This document shows, one piece after another, positions 26,759 to 38,162 of a DNA stretch of 64,000 nt. The notes below the pieces were generated by a model. It was not told the DNA's origin. It saw only the letters and a program-made list of their open reading frames with translations, and made no database searches. The stretch spans positions 868,001 to 932,000 of the forward strand of contig NZ_VFQE01000002.1 in the NCBI RefSeq assembly GCF_006717095.1, written 5' to 3'. Position 1 is the first letter of the stretch, and every line of letters begins with the position of its first letter. Source of the stretch: Blastococcus colisei (GTDB lineage Bacteria; Actinomycetota; Actinomycetes; Mycobacteriales; Geodermatophilaceae). The position numbers were made by a program, and so were the translations under genes.

Positions 26759-27703
26759 TCAGTCTCCGCCGCGGATGCCCGCGAGCCACTCCTCGGCCTC
26801 GGCGAACGCCGGATCCGCGGCGGTCCCGGGAACCGGCTTGTTGTCCCGCCCGTCGGTTCGCGCGTAGGAACCGAGGAAGCGGACGTCGTCGCACACCCGG
26901 TGCAGGGCGGCCAGCGCCTCGCCCACGCGACGGTCGGCGATGTGCCCCTCGCAGTCGAGGCTGAAGGAGTAGACGCCCAGCCGCTGCCTGGTGGGGCGTG
27001 ACTCGATGCGGGTCAGCGAGATCCCGCGGACGGCGAACTCGCTGAGCAGTTCGAGCAACGCGCCGGTGCGGTCACCCACGACGGCGACCAGCGAGGTCTT
27101 GTCGTTGCCGGTGGGCGCCGGCAGCGCGCCGGCCGGCTCGACGAGCACGAAGCGGGTCACCGCCCCGGGGTTGTCGGCGAGGTCCTCGACGAGGGCCGCC
27201 AGCCCGTACCGCTCGGCGGCGATGGGCGCGCACACGGCGGCGTCGAACTCCCCCGCCGCCACCGCCGCGGCGGCCCCGGCGGTGGACGCCACCGGCAGCG
27301 GGGCGAGGCCCGGGAACAGCTCGGCCAGCCGCCCCGCGGTCTGGGCGAGGGCGTGCGGATGGCTGGCCACCGAGCGCACGCCGGCCAGGTCGGTGCCGGG
27401 GCGGACGGCGAGCACGAAGGAGACGTCGAGGAAGACCTCACGGGTGATCACGAGGGCGGGGCCGTCGGCGAGGCCGTCCATCGTCGCGGGCACCGAGCCT
27501 TCGACGGAGTTCTCCAGCGGGACCAGCGCCGCGTCGGCGTCCCCCGATCGGACGGCGGCCAGTGCCGCGGGGACACTCGGCCGGGGGTACCGGGTTCCCT
27601 CCGAGGAGGCAACAGCGGTGCGGAGCGCGGCTTCGGCGAAGGTACCCTCGGGGCCGAGATAGGCGAACCGCGTCGGAGTCGTACTGGATGGCATCCCGGG
27701 CAT
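26759..27703 (-). CDS. pheA: prephenate dehydratase
   Basis: A 314-residue monofunctional PheA. The prephenate dehydratase domain (about 10-195) shows AYLGPEGTFAEAA, PLENSVEGSV and the TRF motif in GAVTRFVLV. The ACT domain (about 205-285) shows GALLELLSEFAVRGISLTRI and ESRP, the phenylalanine-binding signature, so feedback inhibition is expected. It converts prephenate to phenylpyruvate. ATG at 27703: TACCCT lies 6 nt upstream and there is no Shine-Dalgarno. Confidence 0.95.
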   Translation of the reverse strand: MPGMPSSTTPTRFAYLGPEGTFAEAALRTAVASSEGTRYPRPSVPAALAAVRSGDADAALVPLENSVEGSVPATMDGLADGPALVITREVFLDVSFVLAVRPGTDLAGVRSVASHPHALAQTAGRLAELFPGLAPLPVASTAGAAAAVAAGEFDAAVCAPIAAERYGLAALVEDLADNPGAVTRFVLVEPAGALPAPTGNDKTSLVAVVGDRTGALLELLSEFAVRGISLTRIESRPTRQRLGVYSFSLDCEGHIADRRVGEALAALHRVCDDVRFLGSYARTDGRDNKPVPGTAADPAFAEAEEWLAGIRGGD

Positions 27704-27715: not shown

Positions 27716-27815
27716 GTGCGGGCGGGTAGGGGCGTGTCCCGACCCGGGGGAACCGAGTCGTCACCGACAGACCCGGCCGCACCGGGGCTGGCCCGACCCG
27801 TCAGTGGAGGGATGC

Positions 27816-29525
27816 GTGAGTCCCAGCTCGGCCCGCGTCGCCGCCGGCGACCTCGCGGCTGTGCTGTGTCGTCTCCTGGACGCCAGCTCGCGGGAGGACT
27901 CCACCGCCTTCCTCGCCCTCCTCGACGACGTCGACGTCGTCCTCGCGGAGTCCGACGAGCCGTGCTGGTCCGCGTGGCGGCACACCCTCGCCGCCCGGCG
28001 GGCCCTGATCGAGAGCGATCCGGAGCTGGCCGTCGAGTCCGTCGCGGCCGCCCGCGAGGCGCTGGACAAGTGCCCGCCCTCGCCCGACACGGCGCTGACG
28101 CTGGCCTACCTGGCCCACGTCGAGGTGACCGCCGACCATTTCGACGCCGCGATGCTGCTCGCCGTCGACGCCAGCCTGCTCACCGAGGGTCCCAACGCCG
28201 GCGAACCCACCCGCGCCCTGCACCAGGCCCACCGCTGGCTGTCGCTGACGCTGTCGGGACTGGACCTGGAGGAGCTGGCGGTCTCCCACGCGGTCCGCGG
28301 CCACCGGATCGCCGCCGTCCTCCCTGATCTCGCCGACCAGTGGCAGCTGCTGCAGCTGTCCGCCCAGCAGCACGCCGAGCTGGCCCAGACCCTGCGCCGC
28401 CGCGGCGACTCCGAGCGCGCCCGTGCACTGGCCGCCGTCGCCATCGCACAGGCGACCGAGGCCCGGGAGATGGCGTGGGAGCCCGATCCGGCCGACGCCG
28501 ACCTGCTCGACGTCGTCCAGGCGTGGGCCATGAACAGCTCCGACGACCTCGACAGCGCGATGGGTCCGCTGCGCCGGGTCCGCCGACGCGTGCAGGAGCA
28601 CGGCGGCCTGTGGTTGCGCGGCTACACCGACCTGGTGCTGGCCCGCCTGCTCGTGCGGGTCGCCCAGCGGGACGAGGACGAGGAGTACGGCGAGGAGGCC
28701 ATCGGGCTGCTGGTCGACGCCGCCGGTGCCTTCGTGGCGTCGGGCGACCGCCGCCGCTACCGGCAGTGCCTGCTCGAGCTGGGGCAGAACTCCGCCGACC
28801 TGGGCCGGCCCGCCGAGGCGCTGCACTGGCTGGAGGCCTACCGCGCCGACACCGGCCGGGCGCACTCGCGCGGCCGGGAGATGTGGGCGGAGATGTTCGT
28901 CCGCCGCAGCCGGCTGCGGGAGGCCGAGCGGCAGGCCGCCCTGCTCCGCCGGCACGCGCTGGAGGACCCGCTCACCGGGCTCGGGAACCGGCGCAGCGCC
29001 GAGCGCCGGCTGGGCACGATGCGGCTGGGCGAGGAGCCGCTGTCGCTGGCCGTGGTCGACGTCGACCGGTTCAAGAAGGTCAACGACGAGGCCTCGCACA
29101 CCCACGGGGACGCCGTCCTCCGCCGGGTGGCCGACCTGCTGCGCGAGCACAGCCGCACCGGCGACGAGGTGTACCGCTGGGCCGGTGACGAGTTCCTCGT
29201 CGTGCTGCCGACCGCGACCGAGGCTCAGGCGGTCGTGGTGATGGAGCGGCTCCGCGCGGCCGTGGCCGATGCCGACTGGAGCGACGTCGTCCCCGATCCG
29301 GTGACGGTGAGCATCGGCGTCGCCACCGCGCCGGCCGTCGACGAGGAGCAACCATCGACGGTGGTCGGCTGGCGGGCGCTGTTCGACACCGCCGATCTGC
29401 ACCTGTTCTCCGCCAAGCGCAGCGGCCGCAACCGGGTGCGGGCCCCCGGCGGGGAGCCGGCGGCGGGATCCGCGGACGGGCCGGCGGCAGATCCGGCCGA
29501 TCCACCCACCGAGGACCCCGCGTGA
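27816..29525 (+). CDS. diguanylate cyclase with TPR-like N-terminal region
   Basis: A 569-residue cytosolic protein. Residues about 20-360 are Ala/Leu-rich helical repeats resembling TPRs. The GGDEF domain begins at DPLTGLGNRR (about 383), with VVDVDRFKKVNDE and the signature as AGDEF (about 455), which is still within the active range. An RxxD inhibitory site (RTGD) lies five residues before the signature, so product feedback inhibition is expected. It makes c-di-GMP from two GTP. GTG at 27816 is chosen because GGAGGGA precedes it by 5 nt. Its stop overlaps the next gene's GTG (GTGA). Confidence 0.9.
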   Translation: MSPSSARVAAGDLAAVLCRLLDASSREDSTAFLALLDDVDVVLAESDEPCWSAWRHTLAARRALIESDPELAVESVAAAREALDKCPPSPDTALTLAYLAHVEVTADHFDAAMLLAVDASLLTEGPNAGEPTRALHQAHRWLSLTLSGLDLEELAVSHAVRGHRIAAVLPDLADQWQLLQLSAQQHAELAQTLRRRGDSERARALAAVAIAQATEAREMAWEPDPADADLLDVVQAWAMNSSDDLDSAMGPLRRVRRRVQEHGGLWLRGYTDLVLARLLVRVAQRDEDEEYGEEAIGLLVDAAGAFVASGDRRRYRQCLLELGQNSADLGRPAEALHWLEAYRADTGRAHSRGREMWAEMFVRRSRLREAERQAALLRRHALEDPLTGLGNRRSAERRLGTMRLGEEPLSLAVVDVDRFKKVNDEASHTHGDAVLRRVADLLREHSRTGDEVYRWAGDEFLVVLPTATEAQAVVVMERLRAAVADADWSDVVPDPVTVSIGVATAPAVDEEQPSTVVGWRALFDTADLHLFSAKRSGRNRVRAPGGEPAAGSADGPAADPADPPTEDPA

Positions 29526-32413
29526 CCCGCTCCGCCTGGGACGCGTGGGACGCATCGGACGAGGGACGGCGCGTTTCCGAACATGTGCTCGACAGCGCTC
29601 CCGACGCGGTGCACAGTGCGCTCGTGCCGCCCGGAACCCTGCACCGCCGGGTGACCGCTGCCCTGGCGAACTGGCAGCTCGACGACGCCGAGGAACTCCT
29701 CGCCGACGTGGAGCAGGAGCCGTCGCCGTACGTCGCCGCGGACCCGGTGGCCGACGCTCCCGGAGACGCCCCTGTCTCGCTCGGCAAGGCCTGGGCGGAC
29801 ACCCTGCGCGCCGAGCTGCTCGTACGCCGGCTCCGGGTCGCCGGCTTCACCCTCGTCGGCGACCCGGTTCCCGCCGACGCCTCCGCGGAGGACCCCCTCG
29901 ACCTGCACGCCGGCGTCGCCGACCTCATCGAGGGCGCCGGCGGCGAGGACAGCGACCCCCGTTCGGAGTCCGCCTCCCGCGCCGCGCTCGCCATCGCGCT
30001 GGTCCGCTCGGCGAAGGCCGCCTTCGACGCCACGGACGACGACCTGCAGCGAGCCGCCGGCCTGGCCCGGCACGCGCGGATCGAGCTGCTCTCCCGGCGC
30101 ATCGACGCCGCCATGGACGAGGCCGTCGAGGCCGCCAGCCTGCTGGACCCCGTCCTGCCGCCCAGCGCGCTGCTGGTCGACACCCTCGGCACTCTCGCCG
30201 GCGTGCTCGCCGACCTCGAGCTGATGCCGCTGGCGCTGGACTACCAGCGGCGGGCCCACGAGGCGGCGATGATCGCCGCCGCGGATCCTGGCGCGCCGGA
30301 GTGGACCGGGAACGGCGACACCACAGTCGACGCCGACGTCCTGGTCGCCACCACCGCGACCTGCCTCGGTGAGCTGTGCGCCGAGCTGGGCGAGGGGCTG
30401 CTGGACGACGGCGTCCCCGAGTCCGCCGAGCCGCACTTCGCCGAGGCCCGCATGCTCGCCGAGAAGGCGCTGGCGCTGCTCCCCCCGGACAGCGCGGGCA
30501 TCGTGACCGCCCAGGTCGTGCACGGCTGGGCGCTGGTCGGGCTCGGTGAGTGCGCGGCCGCGGTCGGCCCGCTGCGCGCCGCCGTCCGCATCACGTCCGC
30601 GACCGCCGACCGCGCGCAGCTGGCCTCGGCGCAGCTGGCCCTGGGCCGTGCGCTGCGCCGCCAGAGGGACGTCGCCGGGGCCGACGAGCACCTGGTCTCG
30701 GCGCTGAACCTGGCCACCGAGCACGGCCTCCCCCGCCTGCGCCGGGCCGCGCTGCGCGAGCTGTGCACCCTGCACGCGGAGCTGGACGACGCCGGCCGGG
30801 CGCTGCCGTACCTGCAGGCCTACCTCTCCGACGAGCTGGACCGGGTCGACGAGCGGCGGACCCGCTGGGTCGAGCTGTTCGGCCGGCGCAAGAGCCTGCT
30901 GGAGACGGAGCGGGCCGCGGGCCAGCTCCGCCGGCAGGCCTACGAGGACCCGCTCACCCACCTGCCCAACCGGCGCTACGCCGAGGCCCGGCTCGACGGG
31001 CTGCTCACCACGGGCGCGGCGCCGGCGCTCGCCGTGGTCGACGTCGACCGCTTCAAGACCATCAACGACGCCTTCGGCCACCCGGCCGGCGACGCGGCCC
31101 TCCGCACCGTGGCCGACCTGCTCGTGGCCGGCGTCCGCGACACCGACGAGGTGTGCCGCTGGGCCGGCGACGAGTTCGTCATCCTGCTGCCCGACACGAC
31201 CGCGGAGCAGGGCGAGCGGGCGCTCGAACGGATCCGCCGGTCGGTGGCCACCTACGACTGGTCCTCCCTCGGCATCGACGTCCCGGTCACGATCAGCGTC
31301 GGCATCGCGTCGGCGGCCCGCGGCGACGACCGGCGGACGCTCTTCGCCGCGGCCGACGGCGTCCTCTACGACGCCAAGCGCAGCGGTCGCGACCGCGTCG
31401 TCCGGCTGTCCGGCGTGACCCAGACCCGGGCGCCCGGCGCGAGCCCGCTCGACGCCCTGTTCGGCCCCCCACCCGTGGCTCCGGAGGGCGGCACGACGAC
31501 CTCCGACATCCCGGACGACGACGCGGCCGCTCCCGTTCCCGCCGCGCCGGCCACCCCGCCGCCCGCGGGCTCCGCCGACGCCGGGTTCGCCCCGCTCCTG
31601 GTCGCGCCCCGCCCGGTCGACCCGCCACTGGGCACCGGCAGCCCGGCCGAGCCGCTGCTCGGTCCGCTGCCGAGGCCCGAGCCGGTCGCCGTCCCGGAGC
31701 CGGTCGCAGTGGCGCCGGTCGGTCCGCAGCCGATCGTGGTGGATCCGGTCGTGGAAACCGTTGCTCCGGTGCCGGCCGCGCGCCGCGCGGCCACGGTGGA
31801 GCCGGAGGTCGTCTGGGCCACCGGCCGCACCACCGAGCAGGTTCTCGCGCTGGTCCGCGAGGCCCGTCGCGAGCACCCCGACCGCCCGGCGCTGGTGCTG
31901 CGCGCCGCCGCCGAGACGCTCGTCGCGCTCGCGTCGGAGCACGACGCCTACACGACGATGGACGCCGCGGCGATGGCCGCCGCGGTCGGGCCCGTGCCCG
32001 AGCCGGTGGGCCGCGTGCACGTGCTGTGCGCCGGCGGCGCCGACGGCCCGGTCGCGGCCGAGGTCGCCTTCGTCGCCCGGGTCACCGGCACCGAGGTCGT
32101 GCGGGTGGACGACGTCGCCGGGAGCCGCGTCCGGGGCATGCTCGCCGACGGGTCCCTGTTCGCCGAGGCCGACTGCCTGGTCGTCGTCGCGGGGATGGAC
32201 GCCTCGCTCGCGGCGACGGTCGGCGCCATGGCCGACGTGCCCGTGGTGGCGGTGCCCACGTCGACCGGTTCCCCGAACGCCTTCGCGGGCCTGGGCGCGC
32301 TGATGACGATGCTGAACTCGGCCGCGCCGGGCGTCGCCGTCAGCACCATCGACAACGGCTACTCCGCCGGCGTCTTCGCCGCCCGCGTGGCGAGGAGAGC
32401 GACGACACGGTGA
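29522..32413 (+). CDS. GGDEF protein fused to a C-terminal LarB-like (PurE-fold) domain
   Basis: A 963-residue protein in one uninterrupted frame. About 30-470 is helical repeat like its upstream neighbour. The GGDEF domain is at about 476-628 (DPLTHLPNRR, VVDVDRFKTIND, AGDEF at about 548, RxxD site RDTD). A Pro/Ala-rich linker occupies about 630-750. From about 755 to the end it follows LarB, the nicotinate-adenine-dinucleotide carboxylase of nickel-pincer cofactor synthesis: PEVVWATGRTTEQ, RVHVLCAGGADGPVAAEVAF, DCLVVVAGMDASLAATVG, PVVAVPTSTGSPNAFAGL, then TIDNGYSAGVFAA. Two catalytic positions look lost: LarB proteins usually read LNSCAPG where this reads LNSAAPG, and GTSDxPVA where this reads GGADGPVA. 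The cyclase half looks active; the LarB half may only bind a nucleotide. Translationally coupled to the GGDEF gene before it. larC lies 4.5 kb downstream. Confidence 0.85.
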   Translation: MTRSAWDAWDASDEGRRVSEHVLDSAPDAVHSALVPPGTLHRRVTAALANWQLDDAEELLADVEQEPSPYVAADPVADAPGDAPVSLGKAWADTLRAELLVRRLRVAGFTLVGDPVPADASAEDPLDLHAGVADLIEGAGGEDSDPRSESASRAALAIALVRSAKAAFDATDDDLQRAAGLARHARIELLSRRIDAAMDEAVEAASLLDPVLPPSALLVDTLGTLAGVLADLELMPLALDYQRRAHEAAMIAAADPGAPEWTGNGDTTVDADVLVATTATCLGELCAELGEGLLDDGVPESAEPHFAEARMLAEKALALLPPDSAGIVTAQVVHGWALVGLGECAAAVGPLRAAVRITSATADRAQLASAQLALGRALRRQRDVAGADEHLVSALNLATEHGLPRLRRAALRELCTLHAELDDAGRALPYLQAYLSDELDRVDERRTRWVELFGRRKSLLETERAAGQLRRQAYEDPLTHLPNRRYAEARLDGLLTTGAAPALAVVDVDRFKTINDAFGHPAGDAALRTVADLLVAGVRDTDEVCRWAGDEFVILLPDTTAEQGERALERIRRSVATYDWSSLGIDVPVTISVGIASAARGDDRRTLFAAADGVLYDAKRSGRDRVVRLSGVTQTRAPGASPLDALFGPPPVAPEGGTTTSDIPDDDAAAPVPAAPATPPPAGSADAGFAPLLVAPRPVDPPLGTGSPAEPLLGPLPRPEPVAVPEPVAVAPVGPQPIVVDPVVETVAPVPAARRAATVEPEVVWATGRTTEQVLALVREARREHPDRPALVLRAAAETLVALASEHDAYTTMDAAAMAAAVGPVPEPVGRVHVLCAGGADGPVAAEVAFVARVTGTEVVRVDDVAGSRVRGMLADGSLFAEADCLVVVAGMDASLAATVGAMADVPVVAVPTSTGSPNAFAGLGALMTMLNSAAPGVAVSTIDNGYSAGVFAARVARRATTR

Positions 32414-32440: not shown

Positions 32441-33301
32441 CTACTGCGCGGCCCTGAACCGCAGGGTCTGGCCGGGGCGCAACTGCCCGCACCGGTCGAC
32501 GTCACTGCGCACCGGCTCGTCGGCCACGTAGCCGATCACGGGGTAGCCGCCGGTCACGGGATGGTCGGCCAGGAAGAGCACCGGCGTTCCCGAGGGTGGC
32601 ACCTGGAGGGCCCCCCGCACCATGCCCTCGCTGGGCAGTTCACCGTTCTGTACCCGCTCCAGCGGTACGCCGTCCAGCCGCAGACCGACCCGGTTGCTCT
32701 CGTTGGTCACCGTCCAGGCCCGCCCGGTCAGCGCCGCCCACCCCGCGTCGCCGAACCAGTCGGAGCGAGGGCCGGGCAGCACCGCCACGGTGACCTCCCC
32801 ACCGGGGATCTCGGGGACCGGCGCCAGATCGACCCCGGGCATCGGGTCGACCGGCGGCCCCACCGGCAGCACGTCGCCGTCGGCCACCACCGCCGGTCCC
32901 AGCCCCGACAGCACGTCGGTGGCCCGGGAGCCGAGCACCGGGGGGACGTCGATGCCGCCGCGGACGGCGACGTAGGTCCGCAGGCCGGTCCCGGGCGGTC
33001 CCAGCCTCAGCTCGGTGCCGCGCCGGAGCGCGGTCGGCGCGGCGTGGGGGAACGGTCCCGCGCAGCGCGCGCCCGTCGTCACCACCAGCAGGTCGGCCTC
33101 CGCACGCACCGCCAGCCCGCCGTAGGTCACCTCCAGGACCGCGAGCCCCTCCGGGTTGCCGACGAGCCGGTTGGCCTGCCGGTACACAGCCCGGTCGCAG
33201 GCACCCGAGCGGACGATGCCGAGCGCGGCCTGCCCTGGCCGGCCGGCGTCCTGCACCGTCGTCAGGGGACCGGCCGCCAGCACGGTCAGGGCGCGCGTCA
33301 T
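32441..33301 (-). CDS. pxpC: 5-oxoprolinase subunit C (biotin-dependent carboxyltransferase-like, KipA)
   Basis: A 286-residue protein. ALTVLAAGPLTTVQDAGRPG at the N-terminus, GACDRAVYRQANRLVGNPEG, TYVAVRGGI and TNESNRVGLRLDG are the family marks of PxpC/KipA. With PxpA and PxpB it forms the prokaryotic ATP-dependent 5-oxoprolinase that opens 5-oxo-L-proline to L-glutamate. Start overlaps the PxpB stop by 4 bases (ATGA). Last gene of the operon, convergent with the GGDEF-LarB gene (27 bases between stops). Confidence 0.93.
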   Translation of the reverse strand: MTRALTVLAAGPLTTVQDAGRPGQAALGIVRSGACDRAVYRQANRLVGNPEGLAVLEVTYGGLAVRAEADLLVVTTGARCAGPFPHAAPTALRRGTELRLGPPGTGLRTYVAVRGGIDVPPVLGSRATDVLSGLGPAVVADGDVLPVGPPVDPMPGVDLAPVPEIPGGEVTVAVLPGPRSDWFGDAGWAALTGRAWTVTNESNRVGLRLDGVPLERVQNGELPSEGMVRGALQVPPSGTPVLFLADHPVTGGYPVIGYVADEPVRSDVDRCGQLRPGQTLRFRAAQ

Positions 33302-33915
33302 CCCGGCGCCGTCTCGACGAAACGCACCCGTACCCCGGGGCGCAGCAGCGCCGGAGGGTTCCGGTCCAGGTCGAAGACGGCGACGTCGGTCCGGCCGATC
33401 AACTGCCAGCCTCCGGGGGACTCGCGCGGATAGACACCGCTGAACTCACCGGCGAGCGCGACCGACCCCGGCGGCACCTTGGTGCGCGGGGTCGACCGGC
33501 GCGGCACGTCCCACTGCCCGCCCGGCTGCGTGAGGTAGCCGAAGCCGGGGGCGAAGCCGCCGAAAGCAACGGTCCACTCACCTGCCGTGTGCCGTCGCAC
33601 GAGCTCCTCGGGGGCCAGGTCGAGCAGCCCTGCGAGCTCGTCGAGGTCCTCCCCGTCGTAGTGGACGGGCAACTCCACGACGTCCCCGCCGGTGCGGGTA
33701 CCCGGACGCGGCGTGGTCCGACGGACGGCGTCGCCCACCGCGGACAGCGAGGTACGGGCCGGATCGGTCACCAGCAGCACGGTCCGGGCGGCGGGGACGA
33801 TGTCGACCACGCCGTCCGGCGGCTCCTCGGCCAGCGCGGCGTAGAGCGCCAGCACCGCATCCAGGTCGTCCAGCTCCACCAGCAGCGCCGTGCTGCCGCT
33901 CGGAAGCACCCGCAT
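33298..33915 (-). CDS. pxpB: 5-oxoprolinase subunit B (KipI)
   Basis: A 205-residue protein of the allophanate hydrolase subunit 1 fold. The N-terminal RVLPSGSTALLVELDDLDAV and the cyclophilin-like domain with AFGGFAPGFGYL, then VPRRSTPRTKVPPGSVALAG (the R-x-x-P-R-x-x-V/x-P-x-G-S-V-x-x-A-G signature), identify it. Length is normal. It is the partner of PxpC and PxpA. It overlaps PxpC by 4 bases and PxpA by 1 base (TGATG), so the three subunits are made together. Confidence 0.93.
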   Translation of the reverse strand: MRVLPSGSTALLVELDDLDAVLALYAALAEEPPDGVVDIVPAARTVLLVTDPARTSLSAVGDAVRRTTPRPGTRTGGDVVELPVHYDGEDLDELAGLLDLAPEELVRRHTAGEWTVAFGGFAPGFGYLTQPGGQWDVPRRSTPRTKVPPGSVALAGEFSGVYPRESPGGWQLIGRTDVAVFDLDRNPPALLRPGVRVRFVETAPG

Positions 33916-34676
33916 CAGGGTGCGAAGGGGGCCAGGGCCACACCGGCCGCGGTGAGCGTCTCCCGCACCCGCCGGGCGATCTCCACCGCTCCGGAGGTGT
34001 CGCCGTGCACGCAGATCGAGCCCGGACGCAGGGTGAGTTCACCGCCCTCGACGTCCCGGATCGGCTTCCCGGCGGCCATCGCCACACAGCGACGGGCGAT
34101 CTCGGCCGGGTCGTGCAGCACCGCACCGGGCAGCCGCCGCGACACCAGCGTGCCCTCCGGGGTGTACGCACGATCGGCGAACGCCTCGTGCACCACCGTC
34201 AGGCCGGCCTCCCCGGCGAGGCGCAGCCACGCCGATCCCGGCAGGCCCAGGACCGGCAGCGCCCGGTCGTAGTCGACGACGGCGCGGACGACGGCGGCCG
34301 CCTGGTCCTCGTGGTGGACGATCGCGTTGTAGAGGGCGCCGTGCGGCTTGACGTAGCGAACCCGCGAGCCCGCGACACGGGCGAAGCCTTCCAGCGCACC
34401 GATCTGGTAGATGACGTCGGCGGTGAGCGCGTCGGGTTCCATGTCGATGAAGCGTCGACCGAACCCGGCGAGGTCGCGGTAGCCGACCTGGGCGCCGATC
34501 GCGACGCCGCGCTCGGACGCCCGTGCGCACACGCGGCGCATGATCGAGGGGTCACTCGCATGGAAGCCGCAGGCGACGTTGGCGCTGGTGACGAGGTCGA
34601 GCAGGGCGTCGTCGTCTCCGAGCGTCCACTGCCCGAACCCCTCGCCGAGGTCGGAGTTCAGGTCCACGCCGGACAT
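33915..34676 (-). CDS. pxpA: 5-oxoprolinase subunit A (LamB/YcsF family)
   Basis: A 253-residue protein with the YcsF signature [18 protein letters not shown] at the N-terminus, then [30 protein letters not shown], and [11 protein letters not shown]. These hold the acidic and histidine residues of the family's active site. It is the catalytic lactamase-type subunit of the ATP-dependent 5-oxoprolinase. GGTGGAGG precedes the ATG. It starts 7 bases after the stop of the NRAMP-like gene, in the same operon. Confidence 0.95.
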
Positions 34677-34683
34677 CCTCCAC

Positions 34684-35922
34684 CTACGAGAACAGGTCGA
34701 TCACCGGGCGGACGGAATTGACCGCCAGGTAGATGGTCAGCAGCCAGGCGGTCCAGCCGACGACCAGCAGCCACCGCGGGTACCGGTAGCCGTGGAAGAG
34801 GTCGGCACGCCGGGTGGCCACCCACAGCAGCACGGCGATGCCGAGCGGCAGCAGCAGCCCGTTGAAGGCGCCCGCGAACACCAGCAGGGTGGTGGGCGCT
34901 GCGCCCACCAGCACGAACGCCAGCGTGGTGACGGCGATGAAGGCGCAGACGAGGATCGTGCGTGTGCGGTCGCTGGTTCCCGTGCGGGAGGTCACGAACG
35001 ACACCGAGGTGTAGGAGGCGCCGATCACGCTGGTGATGGACGCGGCCCACAGGACGATCCCGAAGACGCGCAGGCCGATCTCGCCGGCCGCCTCCTGGAA
35101 CGCGTTCGCCGCCTGGTTCTCGGCGCCGAGGTCGGCGCCGTTCGCAACCACGCCGAGGATGGCCAGGAAGAGGATCACCCGCATGATGCCGGTGATCACG
35201 ATGCCGGTGATCGAGCCGCGGGTGATGTCCCGGACGTGCTCCGGCCCCGTGACGCCGGAGTCCAGCAGCCGGTGGGCACCCGCGTAGACGATGTAGCCGC
35301 CGATCGTGCCCCCGACCAGGGTCGTGATCGCCAGGAAGGAGACGTCCTCGGGCAGCACGACGTTCTGCAACGCCTCCCCGACCGGCGGGCCGGAGGTGAT
35401 GGCGATGTAGGTGGTCAGCGCGATCATGACCAGGCCGAGGACGACGACGATCCGGTCGACGGCGACCCCCGCCCGCCTGCTGAGGAAGATGCCGATCGCG
35501 ATGAGCGCGGACAGCGCGCCGCCGATCCTCGGGTCCAGCCCGAACATCGCGTCGGTACCGAGGCCCGCCCCGCTGACGTTGCCGACGTTGAACACCAGGC
35601 CGCCGATGAGCAGGAAGCCGGCCATCACCCAGCCGAGCCCCGGGAGGACGAGGTTGCCCAGCTCCTGGGCGCGGCGTCCGGTGACCCCGATGACCCGCCA
35701 CGCGTTCAACTGCAGTGCGATGTCGATGACGATCGAGACGGCGATCGCGAAAGCGAATGCGGCGCCCAGTTGCACCGTGAACGTCGTCGTCTGGGTGATG
35801 AAACCCGGTCCGATGGCCGAGGTGGCCATGAGGAACATGGCACCGAGCAGGGTCGAGCGGGTGCTCGAGGCGAGCCTCCCCGACGGCGCGGTGGTGGTGG
35901 GCTGCTCCGGGAGGTGCGACAT
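34684..35922 (-). CDS. NRAMP-like membrane transporter (YcsG type) lacking the metal-site motifs
   Basis: A 412-residue protein with about eleven membrane helices of the NRAMP fold. In true Mn/Fe NRAMPs, helix 1 has DPGN and helix 6 has MPH. Here helix 1 reads [10 protein letters not shown] (GPGF) and helix 6 reads [13 protein letters not shown] (no MPH), so the classic metal site is absent. The B. subtilis ycsFGI-kipIA operon has the same set of genes, with YcsG in this place. Given its neighbours it may import an organic substrate such as 5-oxoproline or a related acid; that is inference. First gene of the pxp operon; AGGAG precedes the ATG. The 149-base region 35923-36071 is shared with the divergent DUF1445 gene and shows no clear operator. 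Confidence 0.85.
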
Positions 35923-36071
35923 GGGGGCTCCTGGGAACCTGCGGTCCAGCTCGTCCTGGGTGGAGACCTGCAGCGGGTCGCGTCGGCGGCGGGCGGCGCT
36001 TTCACCTCGTCGCGGTCGACCGTAGATTCGAGCCGAACGCCCGGCAATTCGAGCCGTCCGGAGGAGCCCCC

Positions 36072-36875
36072 GTGACAGCCACCGCAGCTGCTCCAGCCAC
36101 GCTCCCGGGCCGGACCCCGGCCGATGCCCGGGCCCGCTACCGCGCCGGCCTGGCGGTTCCGACCTCCGGAGAGGCACCGGGCTTCACCCAGGCCAACCTC
36201 GTCGTGGTGCCCCAGGACTGGGCCTTCGACATGTTGCTGTTCGCGCAGCGCAATCCGCGGCCGGTGCCGCTGCTGGACGTGACCGACCCGGGTTCCTTCC
36301 GCACCGTTCTCGCACCGGACGCCGACCTCCGGTCGGACCTTCCCCGGTACCGGGTCTGGCGGCACGGTGAGCTCGCCGAGGAGCCGACCGACGTGAGCGA
36401 TCTGTGGGCCGACGACCTGGTCGCCTTCCTGATCGGCTGCAGCTTCAGCTTCGAGACCGCCCTGCTGGACGCCGGCGTGCCCGTTCGCAACATCGAGCAG
36501 GGTCGCAACGTCTCGATGTACCGCACCGACCGCGCGTGCCGGCCCGCCGGGCGGCTCTCCGGCCCCCTGGTGGTCTCGATGCGCCCGGTGCCCGCGGAGC
36601 ACGTGGTTCCCGCGGTGCAGGTGACCGGACGGATGCCCCAGGTGCACGGGGCACCGGTGCACGTCGGCTCACCGTCCTCGCTGGGCATTCCCGACCTCGG
36701 CCGGCCGGACTTCGGCGACCCGGTGGATCTCGCCGACGGGGACGTCCCGGTGTTCTGGGCCTGCGGCGTCACCCCGCAGGCGGCGCTGATGGCCTCCCGC
36801 CCACCGTTCGCGATCACGCATGCGCCAGGGCACATGTTCGTCACCGACGTCCCGGATGCGGCCTACCGGGAATGA
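36072..36875 (+). CDS. DUF1445 putative hydro-lyase / D-glutamate cyclase-like protein (YcsI)
   Basis: A 267-residue protein of the UPF0317/DUF1445 family: [49 protein letters not shown], then [13 protein letters not shown] and [15 protein letters not shown] are its conserved blocks. The mammalian homologue (DGLUCY) is a mitochondrial D-glutamate cyclase that makes 5-oxo-D-proline. Next to pxpABC this suggests a route D-glutamate to 5-oxoproline to glutamate; the stereochemical step between the D and L forms is unexplained. GTG start after GGAGGAG. Divergent from the transporter-pxp operon. Confidence 0.87.
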
Positions 36876-36950: not shown

Positions 36951-38162
36951 GTGACCATCGGGTGGCTGGATCTCTCCGCGGGGGCCTCCGGGGACATGCT
37001 GCTGGGGGCGCTGGTGGACGCCGGGGTGCCGCTGGACGTCCTCACCGCTGCGGTGGCTGCCCTGCCGGTCGAGCAGATCCGGCTGGTGACCGAGCAGACC
37101 TCGCGGCACGGGCTGGGCGCCACCCGCGTGCACGTGCACGCACCGCCGTCGTCCGAGCACCGCACGTGGGCGTCGGTACGGGCGCTGCTCACCGACGCGG
37201 CACTGCCCGCGACGATCCGGGACGGCGCGCTCGCCGTCTTCGAGCGGCTGGCCGCGGCCGAGGGCCGGGTGCACCGGGTGTCCCCGGACGACGTGCACTT
37301 CCACGAGGTCGGGGCGCTGGACGCACTGGCCGACGTCGTGGGCGTGGTGGCCGGGTTCGAGCACCTCGGCCTGACCCGCCTGACGGCGTCGCCGGTGACG
37401 CTGGGCAGCGGCTCGGCGCGGAGCGCGCACGGCGTCGTCCCGATCCCCGGCCCGGCGGTGCTGGAGCTGCTGGCCGGCGTCCCGGTGGTCGCGGGGCCGG
37501 TGCGCGCGGAGATGTGCACCCCGACCGGGGCGGCCCTGCTCGCCGCCCGCGTGGACGAGTGGACGGCGCTGCCGCCGATGCGGGTGGCGCGCGTCGGCAC
37601 GGGCGCGGGCGGCCGGGACCCCGTCGAGCTGCCGAACGTCGTCCGGCTGGTGCTGGGCGACCCCGCCGGGCCGCAGCCGGCCGGTCCGGTGGTGCTGGAG
37701 AGCCCCGTCGTCCTCGAGACCAATGTCGACGACCTGGACCCGCGGCTGTGGCCCGGGGTCCTGGAAGCCCTGTTCACCGCCGGCGCCTCGGACGCCTGGC
37801 TGACCCCGATCGTGATGAAGAAGGGCCGGCCGGCGCACACCCTCTCGGCGCTGTGCCGGCCGGACGCCGTCGCGGCCGTCCAGGCGGTGGTCTTCGCGAC
37901 GACGTCGAGCATCGGCCTGCGGATCGTGCCCGTGGGCAAGGTCGCGCTGGAGCGGGTGCAGTCGTCGGTCGAGGTGCTCGACGGCACCGTCGGGGTGAAG
38001 GTCGCCGTCCACGGCGGGCGGGTGGTCAACGTGAGCGTCGAGTACGAGGACGTCGCCGCACTCGCACGGGTGGTGGATCTGCCGGTGAAGGAGGTGCTGC
38101 GCGCCGCCACCGCCGCCGCGGCGGACGTCTACCCCGTCGGCCACCCGGCGGAGGACCGCTAG
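36951..38162 (+). CDS. larC: nickel insertion protein LarC (nickel-pincer cofactor synthesis)
   Basis: A 403-residue LarC in a single frame. GWLDLSAGASGDMLLGALVD at the N-terminus, DDVHFHEVGALDALADVVG (His/Glu-rich, candidate nickel ligands), PTGAALLA, ETNVDDLDPRLWPGVLEAL, MKKGRPAHTLSALC and TSSIGLRI match the family. LarC inserts Ni into the pyridinium-3,5-bisthiocarboxylic mononucleotide cofactor of lactate racemase LarA and related enzymes, using CTP. The single frame differs from L. plantarum, where LarC needs a frameshift. No larA or larE is in the window; the only LarB-like sequence is the GGDEF fusion at 29522. Confidence 0.92.
   Translation: MTIGWLDLSAGASGDMLLGALVDAGVPLDVLTAAVAALPVEQIRLVTEQTSRHGLGATRVHVHAPPSSEHRTWASVRALLTDAALPATIRDGALAVFERLAAAEGRVHRVSPDDVHFHEVGALDALADVVGVVAGFEHLGLTRLTASPVTLGSGSARSAHGVVPIPGPAVLELLAGVPVVAGPVRAEMCTPTGAALLAARVDEWTALPPMRVARVGTGAGGRDPVELPNVVRLVLGDPAGPQPAGPVVLESPVVLETNVDDLDPRLWPGVLEALFTAGASDAWLTPIVMKKGRPAHTLSALCRPDAVAAVQAVVFATTSSIGLRIVPVGKVALERVQSSVEVLDGTVGVKVAVHGGRVVNVSVEYEDVAALARVVDLPVKEVLRAATAAAADVYPVGHPAEDR

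Follow-up and report, generated by a model that had tools for sequence, protein, structure and literature searches.

LarB is an octamer with its active sites at the subunit interfaces. In the mechanism of LarB, reportedly described by Rankin in 2021, a Cys221 adduct and Glu180 are said to act in the interface sites of the octamer; the acid at position 180 presumably has a role in proton abstraction. The domain described here, named pLarB, resembles LarB (NF033503; PDB 7mj0-7mj2) in homology over the whole domain, in its fold and in its place beside larC, as in basal relatives, but it lacks Cys221, Ser127, Lys57, Tyr204 and other residues, scores below the profile cut-off and is fused to a cyclase. 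PurE (AIR carboxylase/mutase) also has similarity to pLarB by its PurE-like core, with a match to Pfam AIRC and PurE structures among the weaker structure matches. However, pLarB scores as LarB, and another, strong AIRC match in the genome (212.5 bits) was taken as its PurE.

GGDEF cyclases with accessory regulatory domains share with the cyclase part of our protein (DGC2) a complete GGDEF domain, the active-site motif and the RxxD inhibitory-site motif. In DGC2, by contrast, the accessory domain is an apparently dead cofactor-biosynthesis enzyme, which is located at the C-terminus behind a long disordered linker. Within the genomes searched this arrangement was recognised in Geodermatophilaceae alone. 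Signalling pseudoenzymes as a general concept have likewise lost catalytic residues while fold and selection are kept, but no pseudo-LarB was found in the literature searched. The same search, which took in few subscription papers, returned no paper on LarB or AIR carboxylase together with GGDEF, Geodermatophilaceae together with GGDEF, Blastococcus together with diguanylate cyclase, or LarB together with S127A. Within that literature, the statement of the original prediction that no GGDEF-LarB system had been described holds.

Gene Map and Domain Architecture

The window, a stretch of 64,000 nucleotides from Blastococcus colisei, comes from a genome (G000) of 5.16 Mb. The features of the locus are listed in Table 1. 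The fused gene starts with GTG inside the stop codon of DGC1 (GTGA overlap) and, as originally read, its translation runs through 963 codons with zero internal stops. A frameshift joining two genes was ruled out, since in-frame fusions recur across Geodermatophilaceae. DGC1 shows 39% identity to the fused protein across residues 152-660. The name PheA is our assumption from the sequence; other flanking genes are likewise taken to encode MMPL and ApbA/PanE proteins. The insert at 32441-36875, with the 5-oxoprolinase, Nramp and D-glutamate cyclase family genes, is present in some genus-mates and missing in others. The genome is rich in GGDEF proteins: the fused protein had 37 matches at E ≤1e-10, and most of those listed were GGDEF domains.

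Table 1. Features of the DGC2::pLarB locus. Positions are those of the window; residue numbers are those of the fused protein.
Feature	Position	Strand	Basis
Prephenate dehydratase (PheA-like, presumed), left flank; also adjoins unfused larB in basal relatives	26759..27703	-	sequence, synteny
DGC1, helical region + GGDEF, 573 aa, tandem paralogue of DGC2::pLarB	27804..29525	+	Pfam GGDEF, E 6.3e-30
DGC2::pLarB fused gene, 963 aa	29522..32413	+	ORF reading, Pfam and NCBIfam profile matches
Helical repeat (TPR-like) region, residues about 216-420	30167..30781	+	structure model; weak Pfam TPR_MalT
Long helix into GGDEF, residues 424-473	30791..30940	+	structure model
GGDEF domain, residues 473-625	30938..31396	+	Pfam, E 2.6e-38
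Proline-rich linker, residues 631-755, predicted disordered	31412..31786	+	model pLDDT <50
pLarB, complete LarB-fold domain, residues 753-958	31778..32395	+	NCBIfam LarB profile, structure model
R769 replacing Lys57	31826..31828	+	alignment to L. plantarum LarB
A840 replacing Ser127	32039..32041	+	alignment to L. plantarum LarB
A934 replacing adduct cysteine Cys221	32321..32323	+	alignment to L. plantarum LarB
5-oxoprolinase genes pxpC, pxpB, pxpA; between pLarB and larC here and in some relatives	32441..34676	-	profile match, synteny
Nramp-like transporter, same insert as 5-oxoprolinase genes	34684..36177	-	Pfam
D-glutamate cyclase family protein, same insert	36072..36875	+	Pfam
larC, nickel insertion protein; immediately 3' of pLarB in several relatives	36951..38162	+	profile match, synteny

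The helical repeats, the intact GGDEF domain with AGDEF and RxxD, the proline-rich linker and the LarB domain, all of which had been proposed from the letters of the DNA, were recovered by Pfam, NCBIfam and the structure model. The Pfam TPR_MalT match (residues 306-432) was weak and under its cut-off, and model confidence falls to about 55 in part of the helix 424-473. AGDEF is located at residues 548-552 (CRWAGDEF), and the RxxD motif (RDTD, 539-542) five residues N-terminal of it. Short stretches in the linker, around residues 676-720, are conserved with the consensus GFAPLL and EPxLGP and are candidate binding motifs.

The NCBIfam LarB profile (NF033503) matched the pLarB residues over profile positions 4-208 of 209 with an E value of 3.2e-43 and 147.8 bits, which is under the curated cut-off of 175 bits; the pLarB copies of G090 and G093 were narrowly above it (177 and 179 bits). 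Pfam AIRC (PurE-type) matched residues 883-957 (E 3.6e-8). PurE was rejected as the identity of pLarB, as the purE profile gave E 3.5e-5 against the LarB value above, and the top structure matches were to LarB. Built on 45 aligned sequences, the full-length AlphaFold model had a mean pLDDT of 73 and a pTM of 0.45, with pLarB mostly at pLDDT >80; pLarB modelled alone reached pLDDT 76 and pTM 0.72. The best 27 matches of the pLarB model in the PDB were all LarB entries (TM 0.75-0.80 by query length), a fold match over the whole length.

Predicted Loss of the LarB Active Site

LarB positions are numbered as in the L. plantarum protein (chain 7mj0). The fused protein has LNSAAPG where canonical LarBs read LNSCAPG or LTACAPG, and AGGADGP in place of AGTSDxP. 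The alignment of A934 to Cys221 confirmed the loss of the catalytic cysteine that had been claimed for LNSAAPG, and the claimed change of GTSD to GGAD was confirmed as well. We collected 112 rows in which a single frame holds LarB and GGDEF, 67 from genome-handle loci and 45 from named loci, duplicates included. None had Cys at position 221 (Ala 77, Ser 15, Thr 10, Gly 6, Pro 3 and one gap) and none had Ser at position 127 (Ala 56, Gly 49, Pro 4, Val 3); D128 was kept in 109. Where GGDEF was not in frame (73 rows), position 221 was C in 62, A in 10 and a gap in 1. The ten Ala221 rows are pLarB copies: eight lie at contig ends, and in L180 and L224 the frame is split; among the genuine LarB rows Cys221 was present in 62 of 63, and the remaining one has a gap.

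We also compared 59 canonical with 85 pLarB domains after removal of duplicates and short pieces. Since the classes were set by residue 221, they are split there by construction, and the independent test is the grouping of the 112 rows by fusion. Nineteen positions with ≥93% conservation in canonical LarBs are lost in pLarBs (Y53, K57, L69, T79, T126, S127, V154, A155, G156, H158, R159, G181, position 184, V202, Y204, G205, position 206, C221 and G235), far more than the two motifs named in the original prediction; a further 26 show partial relaxation, and 41 are retained, including D128, E134, D151, G178, P199, T200, S201, G210 and D231. S127, K57 and Y204 were found in 0 of the 85 distinct pLarBs, H158 in 11% and R159 in 1%. 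The changes of K57 to Arg and of G181 to Ala have a frequency of 1.00. An acid is retained at position 180 (Asp in the fused protein; 77 Asp, 7 Glu and 1 Gly among the 85). C885 is invariant in the 85, but its alignment partner is Lp172, a position where 59% of canonical LarBs have Cys as well. No other conserved Cys aligns to position 221, which rules out a substitute cysteine at the adduct position. The copies of G107, L130 and L158 are strongly diverged.

Nineteen pLarB positions were fixed to a new residue. The N-terminal subdomain holds 16 of them, out of 56 eligible columns, and the PurE-like rest 3, out of 60 (Fisher p 0.0008; only columns eligible to count as new were included). Judged from alignments and models, pLarB has lost the catalytic cysteine together with its environment, retains the predicted core fold and has acquired new conserved residues in the N-terminal subdomain. 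The loss of catalytic residues agrees with the original reading of the domain as a probable pseudoenzyme.

Distribution of the Fusion

The fusion was inferred in 102 of 112 Geodermatophilaceae genomes, so that other GGDEF-LarB fusions, the existence of which had been left as a check on the original prediction, are frequent in the family. pLarB DNA was read for 72 genomes (73 loci, two in G010), and the others were called by profile score and frame length. At 1e-40 the pLarB profile matched 107 of the 112 genomes; in seven (G066, G067, G070-G074) the match was a canonical LarB, and the total of 102 also includes G107, with a weaker match, and G097, where the fusion is split over two contigs. 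The ten genomes without an inferred fusion are nine basal ones (G066-G074) and G080. Among the matches listed, the basal genomes showed weak GGDEF-type matches and LarB alone; five of the nine are <90% complete. In G080 the cyclase part was present and pLarB absent, near a contig end. Within the genus, each of the 16 genomes had one LarB-like copy in addition to a canonical LarB; a weaker match, taken as PurE, was also present in 14.

The best 80 loci of 532 relatives comprised 49 pLarB loci, 45 with GGDEF in the same frame and 4 truncated by a contig end, and 31 canonical LarB loci without in-frame GGDEF, all with Cys and most from Nocardioidaceae. The named genera with the fusion in this set were Blastococcus, Modestobacter, Geodermatophilus, Klenkia and Trujillonella. 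The frame is broken between GGDEF and pLarB in G091 (L180) and G046 (L224), and in G008 (L046) a stop codon interrupts it immediately before GGDEF; each may be a sequencing error or a real change.

The TPR part gave matches in 51 of 298 genomes of the order, every one from Geodermatophilaceae. In 298 genomes of the order, pLarB-profile matches outside the family did not exceed 220 bits and 590 aa of frame, with the exception of G353 (882 aa); in 396 genomes of the phylum they did not exceed 140 bits and 564 aa. The pLarB score alone cannot separate the classes, since a few pLarBs of the family go down to 211 bits. An independent fusion of GGDEF to a canonical LarB may exist outside Geodermatophilaceae. 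A plasmid search gave no record covering 80% of the fused gene in one place; the matches listed were short and at the GGDEF part.

Origin of the Fusion

In the uncut fusion loci that were laid out, the order was pheA, DGC1, DGC2::pLarB and then larC. Oxoprolinase and Nramp genes precede larC in the window and in the genus-mates G001, G003, G006 and G014, and no larC was seen at the fusion locus of G047 (L170). The basal genus g7 (L161-L163) has a canonical larB between pheA and larC, with no cyclase match there.

A thinned tree was built from 75 LarB domains, and all 36 pLarBs in it formed one clade (support 100/100) on a stem of 0.76 changes per site. This clade groups, with support 87/96, with nine canonical LarBs, namely three from g6/g7, two from extra lar loci of G047 and G109 and four from other actinobacteria; the closest sister is not resolved. 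The larE-adjacent canonical LarBs, including that of the window genome itself, form a separate clade with g5 (support 100/99). The simplest history would be that the larC-side larB was captured and inactivated once. It is the synteny, more than the partly resolved tree, that points to such a single origin. G047 (L169) and G109 (L173) each have a separate locus with larE, larB and larC away from pLarB, which is set apart from the usual larE-adjacent copies in the tree and is possibly a re-acquired pathway.

Selection on pLarB and Integrity of the Cyclase

Within the genus, the median pairwise dN/dS was 0.24 for pLarB (136 pairs), 0.14 for GGDEF (105), 0.19 for TPR (105) and 0.12 for canonical LarB (120). 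These values indicate that pLarB is under purifying selection within the genus. In the 28 genomes without nickel-pincer (NPN) genes (see below) the medians were 0.42 for pLarB, 0.40 for TPR and 0.27 for GGDEF, in cross-genus comparisons with synonymous sites taken as saturated. The ratio of the pLarB distance to the TPR + GGDEF distance was 1.51 in these 28 genomes versus 1.30 in 32 genomes with NPN genes. Some relaxation of selection on pLarB is possible.

The cyclase was followed in 115 GGDEF rows (best GGDEF per locus, >60% identical to that of the window, duplicates included). AGDEF or AGDEY and the RxxD inhibitory-site motif were present in all 115, and the metal-site motif (V/I)D(V/I)DxFK in 112. 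DGC2 looks like a cyclase with intact catalytic motifs and is predicted to synthesise c-di-GMP.

Nickel-Pincer Genes in Genomes with the Fusion

Besides pLarB, the window genome has a separate canonical LarB adjoining LarE. We take TIGR00268 to be LarE and Lar_N to be LarA. Sixty-three of the 102 fusion genomes had matches to LarB (>200 bits), LarC and LarE, one had LarB and LarC, and ten had LarC alone, four of these being assemblies of 67-80% completeness. In the other 28 genomes, which are 95-100% complete, the profile search gave no match to canonical LarB, LarC or LarE; the LarB profile at 1e-20 had a single match in each, which was pLarB. On the tree of the TPR + GGDEF part (68 loci) the state without NPN genes requires at least 8 changes, gains or losses alike, with 8 forced by the starred branches and G080 among the 29 rows without the genes. 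The occurrence of the fusion with larB, larC and larE, which would mark it as a member of the NPN pathway, was not constant. The link between c-di-GMP and nickel-pincer metabolism put forward in the original prediction was not borne out by these data, and the 28 genomes disfavour a connection to NPN biosynthesis.

A LarA (Lar_N) match was found in 35 of the 112 family genomes, and there was none in the window genome. At 1e-10 Lar_N was absent from 14 of 16 genomes of the genus, leaving an orphan nickel-pincer pathway, with matches to canonical larB, larC and larE, in the window genome and most genus-mates. The combination of larB, larC and larE without larA is known in about 15% of genomes (PMC11796402).

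In G017, G026, G028, G030 and G033 (L251-L255) the larC near pLarB scored 312-362 bits, versus about 400-446 bits for most full-length matches elsewhere, and neither canonical LarB nor LarE was matched in these genomes. After loss of the pathway, LarC may be undergoing decay or a change of role there.

Discussion

We favour, with moderate confidence, that DGC2::pLarB combines an intact-looking cyclase with a repurposed pseudoenzyme module for assembly, tethering or partner docking, which is perhaps tuned by a nucleotide. The data support a history in which, in an ancestor of most Geodermatophilaceae, the larB of the pheA-larC interval was joined in frame to the end of a TPR-GGDEF gene that had arisen by tandem duplication with DGC1. 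After fusion this larB lost the residues for pyridine carboxylation and stayed under selection, even in genomes where no NPN genes were found, while canonical LarBs elsewhere in many genomes retain the enzyme residues. With the LarB/PurE fold kept, pLarB could serve as a module for assembly, tethering or partner docking. On its flexible linker of ~125 residues it may gather cyclase chains or anchor the cyclase at a target, and c-di-GMP synthesis would thereby be raised or localised. The N-terminal subdomain, with its newly gained family-specific conserved residues, may be the face that makes the new contacts. Assembly could also be tuned by a common nucleotide, of adenine or pyridine type, bound in the former pocket between subunits; an NPN intermediate is unlikely to play this part.

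The strongest rival is a ligand sensor, in which pLarB binds NaAD, NAD, NaMN or AMP without turnover and its occupancy gates the cyclase. We consider this possible but doubtful. The LarB fold and many core residues are kept, and D128, P199-T200-S201 and D231 among them would also be compatible with ligand binding. NAD precursors are universal to our knowledge, which would fit the retention of pLarB in genomes without NPN genes. Moreover, 105 of the 112 rows have Ala or Gly in place of Ser127, and an engineered S127A LarB was solved in complexes, judging by the entry titles (PDB 8soq, 8stc, 8std). On the other hand, K57, T126, H158, R159, Y204 and G205 are among the 19 near-invariant positions that were lost. 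Residues 126, 127, 205 and 221 vary among the copies, which would be odd for a fixed ligand site, and the predicted disordered linker makes direct conformational gating unlikely. It is because of this long linker and the variable former catalytic positions that docking or assembly is favoured over gating. A more specific proposal, that the dead LarB is a sensor of pyridine nucleotides (NaAD, NAD, NaMN) and that nucleotide-controlled assembly of the oligomer sets cyclase activity, appears rather unlikely to us. If it were true, c-di-GMP signalling in Geodermatophilaceae would read the state of NAD metabolism.

An accidental fusion that left an idle and decaying remnant is improbable. pLarB changes faster than the cyclase part, may have been lost once (G080) and is preceded by a broken frame in two genomes; nevertheless, the fusion was inferred in most of the family with a single probable origin, its dN/dS within the genus is low, the fold is well predicted and new residues were fixed in the N-terminal subdomain. 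A regulator of NPN synthesis, with pLarB in mixed oligomers with canonical LarB or in contact with LarC and so coupling c-di-GMP to NPN supply, is slightly more improbable still. The fused gene is located directly upstream of larC in several genomes and LarB, LarC and LarE matches accompany it in the 63 genomes mentioned, but an inherited, old larB-larC pair accounts for the adjacency to larC, and the 28 fusion genomes with none of the three genes and the at least 8 changes of state argue against such coupling. That pLarB is still an active LarB, or another carboxylase with a different nucleophile, is very improbable: the acid at position 180 in 84 of 85 distinct pLarBs and the retained D128 would fit, but position 221 has no conserved nucleophile (A, S, T, G or P), S127, K57 and Y204 are gone from every distinct copy and H158 and R159 from nearly all, and the host genome has a canonical LarB adjoining LarE.

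The fusion is a well-resolved natural case of an enzyme that was captured and retired into a signalling protein. The likely state before is pheA and larB-larC, the state after is pheA, DGC1, DGC2::pLarB and larC, with one origin, and the domain is retained where the parent pathway was not found. Fused genes of this kind should not be annotated as LarB. pLarB would represent a new accessory domain for cyclases, and through it a connection of c-di-GMP to the binding of nucleotides or to protein assembly can be put to the test in actinobacteria.
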